Positions 24,868-28,045 of a DNA stretch of 64,000 nucleotides are shown piece by piece. Origin of the DNA: Blastococcus sp. CT_GayMR16 (GTDB lineage: Bacteria > Actinomycetota > Actinomycetes > Mycobacteriales > Geodermatophilaceae); assembly GCF_004570875.1 (NCBI RefSeq), contig NZ_SPQK01000023.1, forward strand, positions 1 to 64,000. The letters run 5' to 3'. The translations under genes were made by a program, and so were the position numbers. The notes beneath the pieces are model-generated. The model did not search any database. It was given only the letters and a program-made list of their open reading frames with translations, and was not told the origin of the DNA. Position 1 is the first letter of the stretch; each line of letters starts with the position of its first letter.

Positions 24868-26535
24868 TCAGTCCGCGAGGACGACGCGCTCGTTCGGCAC
24901 GCAGTGCGTCATGGTCAGACCGCTGACGTCGCGCGGACCGTTCTTGCCGAGGTTGGCCGCACGCTGGAGCTCGGCCTCGGTCAGCGTCTGGGTCTGCAGC
25001 GGCGCCAGGCCTCGGATGTCGTCCGCGCTGATGCCGATCCCCTCGCCGACCCGCTGACCCAACTCGTCCTCGGCCATGAACAGGTGCCAGACCATCCGCT
25101 CCTGGATCGGGCGGTCACACTGGGACAGCCCACCGATCAGCTGGGCGACCAGCTCGTCCTTCTCCCAGTCCTCCGACAGCAGGTACCGCTGCCCGGCCTG
25201 CGTGTAGTCGTCGGTGCGGGGGATCCGCTTGCGGGTGAGCCGGCCGGTGATCTCCGGGCCCTGCTCGTCGTGCGTGGGGTACTCGGCCTCGCGCAGGCCG
25301 CCGAGGATCGACGGCTCGTAGTTCACGTGCGGGTTCTGCCCGGCGCCCAGGTCCACCCCGTAGGCCATCTGGCCGTCGCGCTGGTTGGTCGCGACGCGGG
25401 CGGCCTTGGCCTGGTTCACCGGCAGCTGCAGGTAGTTCGGGCCCACCCGGTAGCGCTGGGTGTCGGAGTAGGAGAACGTCCGGCCTACCAGCATCTTGTC
25501 GTCGGAGAAGTCGAGGCCGTCGACGAGCACACCGGTACCGAAGGCGATCTGCTCGCTCTCGGCGAAGAAGTTCTCCGGCGCCCGGTTGAGCGTCATGGTG
25601 CCGACCTTGCGCAGCGGGAAGTCGTTCTCCGGCCAGGTCTTGGTGTCGTCCAGCGGGTCGAAGTCCAGCTCGGGGTGGTCGTGGTCGTCCATCAGCTGGA
25701 CGTAGAGGTCCCACGAGGGGTACTCGCCGCGCTCGATGGCCTCGTAGAGGTCCTTGGTGTGGACGCCGAGCTCCTTGCCCTGCGCCACCTCCGCGTCGGC
25801 CGACGTCCAGGACTTGACGCCCTGCTTGGGGAGCCAGTGGTACTTGACCAGCCGGGTCTCACCGGCGGCGTTGACCCACTTGTAGGTGTTCACCCCGAAG
25901 CCCTGCATGTGCCGGTAGGACGCCGGGATGCCACGGGGGCTCAGCACCAGGGTGATCATGTGCATCGCCTCGGGCGACTGCGACCAGAAGTCGAACACCC
26001 GGTTGGGCACCTGGCGGTCGAAGTTCACCGGGTCGGGCTTCTGCGAGTGGATGAAGTCGGGGAACTTGACGGCGTCCCTGATGAAGAAGACGCCGAGGTT
26101 GTTGCCGACGAGGTCCCAGTTGCCGTCCTCGGTGTAGAACTTCACCGCGAATCCGCGGGGGTCGCGGGTGGCCTCGGAGGAGTCGCGGCCACCGGCCACC
26201 GTCGAGAACCGAAGGGCGACCTCGGTCTCCTTGCCCTTCTCCTGGAAGAGCTTGGCGCGGGTGTACTTCGAGATCGGCTCGTCGCCGACGGTGCCGTCGG
26301 CGACGAAGACACCGAACGCGGTGGCGCCGCGGGCGTGCACGACGCGCTCCGGGATCCGCTCGCGGTCGAAGTGGCTGATCTTCTCGAGGAACTGGTAGTT
26401 CTCCAGGGTCGCGGGCCCACGGGCGCCCACCGTCCGCTGGTTCTGGTTGTCGTAGACCGGGTGGCCCTGACGGTTGGTCAGGACGGCGCGGTCGGCCTCA
26501 CTGGCGGGCGGACCCTGCGATGCGACGTCGGTCAT
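24868..26535 (-). CDS. katA: Monofunctional heme catalase
   Basis: A 555-residue catalase that disproportionates hydrogen peroxide. Catalytic H67 lies in [14 protein letters not shown]; the distal Asn is in [12 protein letters not shown]; the heme-ligand tyrosine is in [17 protein letters not shown]. The core matches small-subunit (clade 2/3) catalases with a modestly long C-terminus. ATG at 26535 follows AGGAGGAG and overlaps the upstream regulator stop in ATGA, so catalase is co-translated with its likely Fur-family regulator. It is the second gene of that operon. Confidence 0.95.
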
Positions 26536-26993
26536 GCGGTAGCTCCTCCTCGGATGTCCAACTGGTGGTTCTGGCGGTTCGGGCCATGGCAGACCGAACA
26601 CAGCCCCCAGAACACGACCTCGGCCTCGTCGACGACGAAGCCGGCCGCATCCGAGGGACTCAGACAGGGGGCCGCCCCGACGGCGCAGTCGACATCGGCG
26701 ACCACGCCGCACGAGCGGCAGACCAGGTGGTGGTGGTTGTCCCCGACCCGGAGCTCGAACAGCGCGGGTGCGCCGGCCGGCTCGATGCGGCGGGCGATCC
26801 CTCCGGCGACGAGCGCCTTCAGTACGCCGTAGACCGCCTGCGGGGACAGGGACGGGTGCAGGTCGCGCGCGCCGGTGACGATGGTGTCGGCGTCGGCGTG
26901 CGGGTGCTCGGCGAGCACGCTGAGGACCGCCAGCCGCGGCCGCGTCACCCGCAGACCCGCACCGCGCAGCTCGTGCGCCCAGGCCGTCTCCAT
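26532..26993 (-). CDS. Fur-family regulator (CatR/FurA/PerR type) of catalase
   Basis: A 153-residue Fur protein. The winged helix is seen as [24 protein letters not shown] and [16 protein letters not shown]; the metal-binding H-rich segment is [11 protein letters not shown], with a second CxxC (CSVCHG) near the C-terminus for structural zinc. Position directly before a catalase gene, with a four-base overlap, matches mycobacterial furA-katG and Streptomyces catR-catA. The expected role is peroxide-sensing repression of its own operon. A palindrome ends 19 bp before the ATG. Confidence 0.92.
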
Positions 26994-27011
26994 CGCGACC
27001 CACTGAACGCC

Positions 27012-27036
27012 CTTGTTTTGAATCAGTCAAATCAAG
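27012..27036. promoter_or_regulatory. Probable Fur/CatR operator of the regulator-catalase operon
   Basis: A 25-bp imperfect palindrome: arms CTTGTTTTGA and TCAAATCAAG (9 of 10 bases complementary) around ATCAG. It is A/T-rich in an otherwise G/C-rich gap and sits 19 bp upstream of the regulator start codon, where it would overlap the promoter. Its size and A/T character suit a Fur-family box. Confidence 0.75.
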
Positions 27037-27074
27037 CGCGGACGGTCCCAGTCCCTGAGACGACGCACCGTGAC

Positions 27075-27164
27075 GTGTTGATCAGGTCTCCTGATCACGA
27101 TGGGTCCTGGCTCACGGTCGACGGTGAGCTAGGACCCAGAACGATCAGGTCACCTGATCAACAC
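27075..27164. repeat. 90-bp near-palindrome with nested GATCAGG/CCTGATC palindromes
   Basis: Two 41-nt arms (27075-27115 and 27124-27164) are complementary at 34 of 41 positions, with a GTCGAC core at the centre of symmetry. Each arm contains its own small palindrome, GATCAGG-N3-CCTGATC. It starts just after the purU stop codon. It may be a complex terminator, a REP/MITE-like repeat, or a regulator binding array. Only one copy is present in the window. Confidence 0.8.
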
Positions 27165-27169
27165 GGAGC

Positions 27170-28045
27170 TCAGGCGAAGACGATGGTGCGCGGGCCCTCG
27201 ACGATGATGCGGTCCTCCACGTGCCAGGTCACCGCCTGCGCCAGCACCTGCCGCTCGACGTAACGGCCCACCCGGCGCATGTCCTCGACCGTCGCCCGGT
27301 GGTCGATGCGCGCGACCTCCTGCTCGATGATCGGGCCGGCGTCGAGGTCCGGGGTCACGTAGTGCGCGGTCGCCCCGATCAGCTTCACCCCGCGGTCGTG
27401 CGCGGCCTGGTACGGGTTCGCACCGACGAACGCCGGCAGGAAGCTGTGGTGGATGTTGATCAGCCGCTCCGGGAACCGGCTGCAGAAGTCGGCCGACACG
27501 ATCTGCATGTAGCGGGCCAGGACCACCAGGTCGACGCCGCCGACCAGTTCCAGCGCGGCCGCCTCCGCCTCGGCCTTCGTCTCCGGGGTGACCGGCACGT
27601 GGTGGAACGCGATCCCGGCTGCCCGAGCGACCGGCTCCAGGTCGCGGTGGTTGGAGACGACGCAGGCGATCTCGGCCCGGAGGTCGCCGGCCCGAACCCG
27701 GTAGATGAGCTCCTGGAGCACGTGGTCGGTCCGGCTCACGAACACCGCGAGGGTGGGCCGGCGAGCGGCCTCGGTCAGGCGCCACGTCATGCGCCACTCC
27801 CGGGCCAGGAGGGCCAGTGCGCCCTCGAGCTGGTGCCGGCGTGCGGCCAGGTCCTCGAGGACGAACTCCAGCCGCAGCGTGAACGTGCCGCCGGTGGGGT
27901 CGGACGAGTGCTGCTGCGAGTCGATGATGTTCGCACCGGCATCGGCCATGAGCCGGGACAGGACGGCGACGATCCCGGGCCGGTCGGGGCAGCGGACGAC
28001 GAGCCGCCCCACGTCGGTGAACCGGGGGTCGCGCGCGTCAGTCAC
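27170..28045 (-). CDS. purU: Formyltetrahydrofolate deformylase
   Basis: A 291-residue enzyme releasing formate from 10-formyl-THF, supplying formate to PurT-type purine synthesis and balancing folate one-carbon pools. The N-terminal ACT domain is visible as RLVVRCPDRPGIVAVLSRLM. The formyltransferase-like domain has NHRDLEPVA, ARYMQIVS, the INIHHSFLPAF catalytic segment (with N-x-H and H), and GATAHYVTPDLDAGPII containing the catalytic Asp. GTG at 28045. A large palindrome follows the stop. Confidence 0.94.
   Translation of the reverse strand: MTDARDPRFTDVGRLVVRCPDRPGIVAVLSRLMADAGANIIDSQQHSSDPTGGTFTLRLEFVLEDLAARRHQLEGALALLAREWRMTWRLTEAARRPTLAVFVSRTDHVLQELIYRVRAGDLRAEIACVVSNHRDLEPVARAAGIAFHHVPVTPETKAEAEAAALELVGGVDLVVLARYMQIVSADFCSRFPERLINIHHSFLPAFVGANPYQAAHDRGVKLIGATAHYVTPDLDAGPIIEQEVARIDHRATVEDMRRVGRYVERQVLAQAVTWHVEDRIIVEGPRTIVFA

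Follow-up and report, generated by a model that had tools for sequence, protein, structure and literature searches.

A composite palindromic repeat of Geodermatophilaceae and its probable partner, a predicted nuclease gene of AbiEi/DUF559 type

A 90-bp near-palindrome lies between purU and a fur-type regulator gene in the 64-kb stretch of Blastococcus DNA that was analyzed here as a whole and that we call the window. We consider this palindrome to be probably one of the non-autonomous copies of a composite repeat, itself partnered by an AbiEi/DUF559-type nuclease gene. A wider reading, whose chances we judge to be about even, would make this pair one member of an actinobacteria-wide palindrome-nuclease class, in which each AbiEi/DUF559-type protein would recognize and cut its own palindrome, so driving its spread to gene ends and the concerted evolution of its copies, and in which several pairs per genome would compete for slots at gene ends.

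The window palindrome and its repeat family

The element and its setting comprise the following features.

27075 to 27164, no strand assigned: the whole A-C-A element, a composite palindrome, 5 bp past the end of the purU ORF
27079 to 27097, no strand assigned: left A module, TGATCAGGTCTCCTGATCA, a hairpin with a 3-nt loop, found by pattern match
27102 to 27137, no strand assigned: C module, the hairpin GGG-TCCTGGCTCA(10 nt)TGAGCTAGGA-CCC, whose genus-variable part is the GGG/CCC triplet
27142 to 27160, no strand assigned: right A module, CGATCAGGTCACCTGATCA, found by pattern match
27170 to 28045, minus strand: purU, from its ORF and the gene caller, with its 3′ end adjoining the element
26532 to 26993, minus strand: fur-type regulator gene, in tandem with and downstream of purU, with the element upstream of its start

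The product of purU is presumably formyltetrahydrofolate deformylase. The earlier note on this DNA had described the element as a near-palindrome with nested GATCAGG/CCTGATC palindromes, placed between purU and the fur-type gene, and all three points are borne out. Its 41-nt arms, placed on either side of GGTCGACG, pair at 34 of their 41 positions (27075-27164), which is the top score among all 41/8/41 placements in the window; the runner-up scored 26, and the best placements in five mononucleotide shuffles of the window scored 25 to 26. The repeat search lengthened the arms to 46 nt with 83% complementarity (27074-27119 and 27120-27165). The nested palindromes are the two A modules: the pattern TGATCAGGNNNCCTGATCA, allowing up to three mismatches, has four strand matches in the window against 0.09 expected, all of them at 27079-27097 and 27142-27160. 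Folded as RNA, the element reaches −66.3 kcal/mol (z −10.75, equaled by 0/200 shuffles), and folded as DNA it has a z of −9.34. Some 80 bp separate it from the start of the fur-type ORF (26993), which it precedes, and a catalase-type gene lies further downstream. No Rfam family was found in the window at the gathering threshold. Between about 27010 and 27045, upstream of fur, there is also a TTGAATCAGTCAAATCAAG-like sequence that is kept in the compared relatives with an adjacent fur; it is possibly an autoregulatory Fur-type site.

A genome-wide search, which the earlier note had proposed as the check on a mere single-copy terminator, found 19 copies of the composite repeat in the organism's own genome (G000; 4,520,567 bp in 47 contigs), and a single-copy terminator is thereby ruled out. 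Nineteen elements in 4.52 Mb is a modest count for a REP family. The copies consist of rigidly spaced modules: an A hairpin (GATCAGG...CCTGATC), a C hairpin (TCCTGGCTCA...TGAGCCAGGA), and H, which is half of C. Nine elements read A-C-A, the type of the window copy, and ten read H-C-A. The A-to-A spacing is 63 bp in 9/9 A-C-A elements, and the arms of H and C recur every 20 bp. All 28 A modules of the genome (TGATCAGGNNNCCTGATCA, up to two mismatches; reversed-pattern control 0) lie inside the 19 elements, as do 35/36 exact GTCCTGGCTCAC 12-mers of C and H (the exception being C11:429427), so that no other element of this genome carries these ends. In relatives, tandem H modules are possible (L104, L154, and L201). 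An alternative end type, GACCAGGATGCTCCTATGGATCGTCAAG, replaces the A module at L172, L191, L201, and L216.

Matches at E ≤ 1e-5 were present in 56 of 146 genomes searched. All 56 belong to Geodermatophilaceae, a family that supplies 86 of the 146, and no other family among the 146 gave a match at that threshold. A C-stem scan of named genomes returned at least 116 stretches; among the matches listed, 112 came from Blastococcus, Geodermatophilus, Modestobacter, or Klenkia and four were off-target (Chlorogloea, Alteromonas, Saprospiraceae, and Ktedonospora). The C-stem pattern also occurs, with its loop shortened, in two viral contigs (L219 and L220), and these matches are probably fortuitous.

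Pairing within the repeat was assessed on an alignment (A1) of 116 of the 130 eligible copies; the other 14 (11 from Klenkia, L124:2217, L137, and L203) were omitted because they aligned more poorly, an omission that favors A pairing. The covariation score of the named C and right-A hairpins was 0.147 compared with 0.073 after shuffling (reached by 0/500 shuffles), and slid partners gave at most 0.067. Cells changed on both sides numbered 160 versus 73 (0/500 shuffles). Pairs altered in both members came to 12 versus 10.8 (reached by 103/500 shuffles), and further pair types to 35 versus 33.1 (113/500). Two of the five covariation measures are therefore at shuffle level, and they are the two least misled by relatedness; from this split, we conclude that the structure is well preserved, with a modest amount of independent covariation. 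Ten C pairs are uninformative on covariation because they were used to find most of the copies and so hardly vary. RNAalifold on A1 predicted the C stem alone, with a small covariation term. An independent compensatory case is found at the purU slot, where G009 and G040 carry TCCTCCCTCA and the opposite arm has the matching GG for CC. We rejected a pairing model that rests on the long hairpin alone, as local and long pairings are each kept only in part at the outer arm positions of 30 A-C-A copies.

A gene between facing copies

Outside the window, one gene of the same genome (C18:28250-29248) is enclosed by two facing copies of the repeat 1.2 kb apart, and the resulting unit of about 1.2 kb reads A-C-H-[gene]-H-C-A. 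The A ends are common to the dispersed repeat and to this unit, with A outermost, and the unit is only a candidate autonomous element.

To follow this gene in relatives, we used the 30 best-match homolog loci from 146 relatives searched, picked by protein score alone with repeats disregarded. Repeat parts were present on both flanks in 28/30 loci, on one flank in L318, and on neither in L342; L331 was scored through the overlapping L172, where the gene splits into two tblastn pieces. Elsewhere within 1.5 kb of the 30 loci, no C core was found except at the cut locus L331, and the A-module detector gave 0/174 hits in control stretches of 400 bp from the same loci. Where A and C were both recognized in a flank, A was always outermost, L331 aside, and the sequences have the A-C-H-gene-H-C-A layout of the C18 unit. 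A cruder automatic order check placed A outermost upstream in 20/28 and downstream in 17/28 loci, a low yield that arose mostly because a module was missed.

The location of the gene varies. Comparison of 30 loci (29 of the protein-chosen set plus Modestobacter L151) separated the neighborhoods into seven groups: nine loci beside dnaK, among them L342 without the repeat; seven beside a sigma-like gene; ten within a linked set of four neighbor types; and the singletons L320, L321, L322, and L151. The dnaK site of G036 holds a 50% homolog (L295), and no core of the window repeat was found there. Across the family, at least five repeat matches were present in 24/24 genomes with a homolog at E ≤ 1e-100 versus 13/62 others, and in 25/30 versus 12/56 at E ≤ 1e-90, counts that come from related genomes and from match numbers with an upper cap. 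Since 13 of the 62 genomes without a close gene (E ≤ 1e-100) keep at least five matches, the gene is unnecessary for the retention of copies.

Two further observations concern sequences enclosed by or lying next to repeats. A TTGTCCACA-like box (at most one mismatch) occurs on the 5′ side in 23/30 partner loci and on the 3′ side in 0/30; in 20 of the 23, its distance from the matched start is 56 to 61 nt, and we take it to resemble the actinobacterial DnaA box. A short-chain dehydrogenase-like gene in a Blastococcus MAG (L161, 786-1643) is bracketed by two repeat copies, which may have captured it or may surround it by chance.

The C18 protein has 333 residues, of which 5 to 177 are AbiEi-like (PADLOC, 3e-22). 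Pfam AbiEi_4 matches 23/25 homologs at E ≤ 1; the C18 protein itself scores 0.046, below the curated cut-off. In an alignment of homologs (A2, which omits L327, L328, L330, L331, L334, L338, and L342 of the 30 best and adds L151 and L343), the C-terminal part has the invariant residues E201, E205, D237, E248, D250, K254, E271, and D276. The DUF559 cut-off is passed by two paralogs from the same genome, L345 (4.3e-5) and L349 (8.2e-8); L347 falls below it, and the DUF559 model gave no match for the C18 protein, L344, or L350. On the basis of the DUF559-matching paralogs and the acidic motif, the C18 protein is predicted to be a nuclease. The homing endonuclease model of PADLOC matches L345 (4.9e-4) and L349 (0.016) weakly. 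The partner protein has no NCBIfam match, a profile search found no relative in the PDB (best E 0.68), and a single-sequence AlphaFold model of the L151 protein was unusable (pLDDT 35).

Gene ends, slots, and genera

Genes around the copies were called by a home-made codon-usage caller. The 92 gaps with an element were convergent in 45 cases, tandem in 44, and divergent in 3, compared with 63, 325, and 101, respectively, among 489 gaps without one. Seventeen of the organism's own copies could be classified, nine as convergent, six as tandem (including the window copy), one as divergent, and one as lying within a called gene. The distance from core to stop codon has a median of 38 bp on the A side (quartiles 34-42, n = 151) and 44 bp on the H side (28-87, n = 67). 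Of 43 tandem cases, 32 have A turned toward the stop codon of the upstream gene, orthologous G048/G036 copies included.

The occupants of such slots change between relatives. The purU slot was compared by eye at 30 loci, 78/83 genomes having a match somewhere. It holds an A-C-A element in G000, G006, G009, and G040, a single A hairpin in G001, unrelated hairpins of the CTTTCGG/CCGAAAG type in G004 (L222) and G015 (L243), and no recognizable copy at the remaining 23 loci. Ten of the 25 element regions of G048 align to an element region of G036 (15/16 G036 matches compared). The other 15, located in G036 by joined query, have an element there in one case (L294); by eye, at least three have other hairpins (L296, L299, and L303) and the rest are short gaps or unrelated sequence. 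At L296 and L298, hairpins of the GTGCACATCCGCGGA...TCCGCGGATGTGCAC type lie at or near the gene end where G048 carries the element. At L259/L281 and L260/L288, one side of the G048-G036 alignment breaks off at the element, which would fit recombination of copies with each other.

Homologous flanks are shared within 34 groups of copies, some of which merge neighboring slots. The C-stem triplet tracks genus: it is GGG in 18/18 of the organism's own copies (leaving out C22:347740, whose core is changed), TGC in 10/10 copies from Modestobacter, CCG in 9/11 from Klenkia, and GGG in 34/51 from Blastococcus, and it is mixed in Geodermatophilus (GCG 11/40, GGG 7/40). We also compared identity over 24 unselected positions, using a stricter definition of a slot and pairs that are not independent. 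Mean identity was 0.653 for copies in the same slot and genus (n = 40) and 0.636 for different slots of the same genus (n = 3181); across genera, it was 0.508 for the same slot (n = 37) and 0.489 for different slots (n = 5122). The fraction sharing the triplet was 0.53, 0.71, 0.30, and 0.22 in these four classes, respectively. The sequence of the repeat follows genus, not slot. Something keeps the copies of a lineage alike, be it copying, conversion, or selection by one binder.

Further protein-palindrome pairs and the competing readings

The organism's own genome encodes nine homologs of the partner protein, several with their own palindrome on both sides. The z score for sharing between the two flanks exceeds 4 in 7/9; L345 (2.5) and L346 (0.5) are not set apart from controls. 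The 150 control genes had a 95th percentile of 2.9, and no more than one of them reached any of the seven. A two-sided measure of hairpin strength failed to set all paralogs apart from controls. With a laxer flank score of high background, L313, L348, and L347 had 0, 1, and 6 of 466 controls as high, and the other six of the nine had 17 to 298.

A stricter flank score was then fixed before 20 further homologs, chosen among the matches listed on protein match alone, were scored. Sharing of at least 19.5 over 250 nt was found in 15/20 of these versus 2/358 control genes, and one of the two passing controls is itself a gene between two copies of the window repeat. With 170-nt flanks, the same value was reached by 10/20 further homologs, 4/8 of the organism's own paralogs, and 29/29 close homologs. 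Flank scores of 43.5, 26.5, and 23.5 were obtained for L400 and L403 from Tsukamurella and L401 from Arthrobacter, whose palindromic flanks are shared; L402 from Nonomuraea, where gene ends were guessed as there is no annotation, scored 9 with no sharing. The L400 palindrome recurs at 20 places in eight records of one Tsukamurella strain, both strands probably being counted, and seven of the eight best places are without an annotated feature. The L401 palindrome was found only in its own record, at four places.

Several of these palindromes are also dispersed in the organism's own genome. A joined-query search for copies away from the gene, in which 40 of 151 candidates were scored so that its counts are lower bounds, found at least seven places for the L344 family (E 3e-16 to 2e-3), at least nine for the L350 family (E 7e-9 to 6e-3) in addition to the copies flanking its gene, at least two for L348, at least one for L343, and weak evidence for L347 (E 0.08). 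For L345, L346, and L349, no such copies were found among the 40 candidates scored. Two of these families resemble the window repeat in being dispersed. One, AGTTGATCATCG...CGATGATCAACT, is about 85 bp long, occupies at least nine or so places (loci L371, L372, L374, and L378; contigs C2, C3, C4, C10, C22, C28, C34, and C42 of G000), and flanks paralog L350 on both sides (C2:115823 and C2:116863). The other, CTCTTGCGGTGTTG, has half units 20 bp apart and is cognate to paralog L344 (L364, L368, and L375). Paralog L349 is flanked by the GGACTTTCGGCGCCGAAAGTCC hairpin, of the CTTTCGG/CCGAAAG type that G004 has at the purU slot. Of three other palindrome families searched for in the window, two gave no match; the L350-type 17-mer has two matches with three mismatches (28231 and 39786), inside called genes, which is more than in any of 100 shuffles.

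Protein and palindrome vary together. Over 60 loci (L331 and L402 omitted), protein similarity correlated with cross-side similarity of the flanks, 5′ against 3′, with a Spearman coefficient of 0.663 (0/500 permutations), and a locus's own 5′ and 3′ flanks share at least 19.5 in 46/60. Flank palindromes were shared in 0/714 pairs with a relative protein score below 0.3, 31/636 between 0.3 and 0.5, and 259/420 at 0.5 or above; because the loci are related, counts over them are not independent.

A cognate enzyme and its site would account for these observations as follows. The AbiEi domain would bind the A or C palindromes, and the earlier note's idea of a site for a dimeric protein fits a partner with an AbiEi-like N-terminal part. 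The nuclease domain would nick or cut the palindromes, probably as hairpins or cruciforms, perhaps when they are extruded during replication. The palindromes would then be copied by repair or replication, and family members would come to resemble one another whenever one served as template for the repair of another. Such copying might occasionally plant repeats at new gene ends, where harm is least, as in homing. There, copies may be tolerated or kept because a strong hairpin after a stop codon would end transcripts from both sides.

Co-variation is also predicted by a regulator and its operator. The AbiEi-like protein could be a DNA-binding regulator or roadblock, autoregulated through the flanking copies and acting through the dispersed copies at other sites, with a nuclease domain that is inactive or used elsewhere and with repeats that do not move. 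AbiEi antitoxins bind inverted repeats of their own promoter, according to PMC7319586, and the A module is very conserved. Nonetheless, we think such a regulon unlikely: the repeats flank the gene on its 3′ side as well, the dispersed copies lie mostly at gene 3′ ends and rarely in divergent gaps (3/92), the partner gene occurs in seven neighborhood groups, and the invariant E205, D237, E248, and D250 suggest a nuclease site.

The tight placement after stops and between convergent genes, together with the unrelated hairpins that can hold the same slots in relatives, is what would be expected of plain bidirectional terminators shuffled by ordinary recombination, the nuclease gene merely needing terminators too. 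We regard this explanation as improbable. It leaves unexplained the conservation of sequence across 19 sites, the likeness within a genus without memory of slot, the copies 5′ of the partner gene, and the co-variation with the protein. Furthermore, the window element has the GC-rich hairpin of an intrinsic terminator but lacks the T-run, and a scan of 26950-27250 found neither T-run terminators nor sigma-70-type promoters.

The earlier note had also called the element REP/BIME-like or a MITE. The kind is right, since the composite repeat is present in 19 scattered copies, most of them at the ends of genes, and Conv-REPs near 3′ ends are typical of REPs according to PMC3733652. That it is driven by a RAYT transposase, or is a MITE of an ordinary insertion sequence, the transposase having been missed or lost, seems very improbable to us. 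Y1_Tnp (PF01797) was found in 0/49 same-family genomes searched, out of 86 in the larger sets, with 5/14 control genomes positive, and no other element of the organism's own genome shares the repeat's ends. Target-site duplications were sought in 5,418 tests on 157 copies, in which no length or offset stood out, which speaks against a classical MITE. Among the sites compared between G048 and G036, there was no flanking duplication and no clean-ended insertion event. Finally, we give very little credence to a solitary AbiE-type defense or toxin-antitoxin module whose palindromes would serve as decoys or as labels of self DNA: PADLOC does call the N-terminal part AbiEi, but the 30 loci have no constant neighbor such as an AbiEii toxin gene (the neighbors, compared as groups, form unrelated groups), and one genome has nine homologs, several with different palindromes.

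The nuclease-partnered repeat that we favor is most like REP/RAYT systems and REPINs. It shares with them dispersed composite palindromes at gene 3′ ends, an enzyme gene between two inverted copies, co-variation of enzyme and repeat, and persistence in a lineage. Unlike in REP/RAYT, the partner is an AbiEi/DUF559-type protein and not a Y1 HUH transposase, the modules are in rigid A-C-A or H-C-A order with half-hairpins 20 bp apart, and the hosts are high-GC actinobacteria. No unpaired GTAG tag, the head of REPs, was seen by eye in the copies shown; H often begins with CGTC, but this lies within the half-hairpin and is not an unpaired tag. The search of 49 family genomes did not turn up the defining transposase, and for this reason we do not assign the repeat to REP/RAYT. 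The comparison suggests that repeat and partner gene work like REP/RAYT, with an unrelated enzyme. BIMEs, which are bound by gyrase, IHF, or Pol I, are likewise mosaics of different palindromic units at gene ends; here, the module spacing is fixed (63 bp between the A modules of all nine A-C-A copies in the organism's own genome) and the unit sequences differ. Vsr-like (EDxHD) homing endonucleases offer a parallel in that nuclease-driven copying would account for the likeness of the copies; the present system differs in having no intron or intein and no allelic target. The CGTC-type REPs of PMC3733652 are also short palindromes by convergent stop codons with no dedicated transposase known; these families were reported from five other phyla (Di Nocera 2013), and the main text of that paper does not contain the words Actinobacteria, Geodermatophilus, Blastococcus, or Frankia. 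The likeness to the AbiE type IV toxin-antitoxin system lies in the AbiEi-matching N-terminal part and in the binding of inverted repeats by AbiEi proteins (PMC7319586); the differences are that no AbiEii partner gene was seen here, that the protein has a C-terminal part of nuclease type, and that the repeats are two-sided and dispersed.

We found no earlier description of such repeats or of the pairing in open-license PMC papers. The repeat alone is of a known kind; its recurrent pairing with an unrelated enzyme is the new part, possibly more. The recurrence of such pairing in other actinobacteria, with different repeats, suggests an unrecognized route for the spread and likeness of such repeats; for REP-like palindromes that lack a RAYT, it supplies a candidate class of enzyme from soil bacteria together with the cognate DNA. 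As there are several independent pairs, specificity is directly testable by exchanging proteins and palindromes. The pairing also points to a possible function for actinobacterial proteins labeled AbiEi antitoxin or DUF559 and to elements that might serve as terminators in high-GC hosts. If the wider, actinobacteria-wide reading is true, such pairs would amount to a homing-like analog of REP/RAYT that relies on a nuclease of restriction type.
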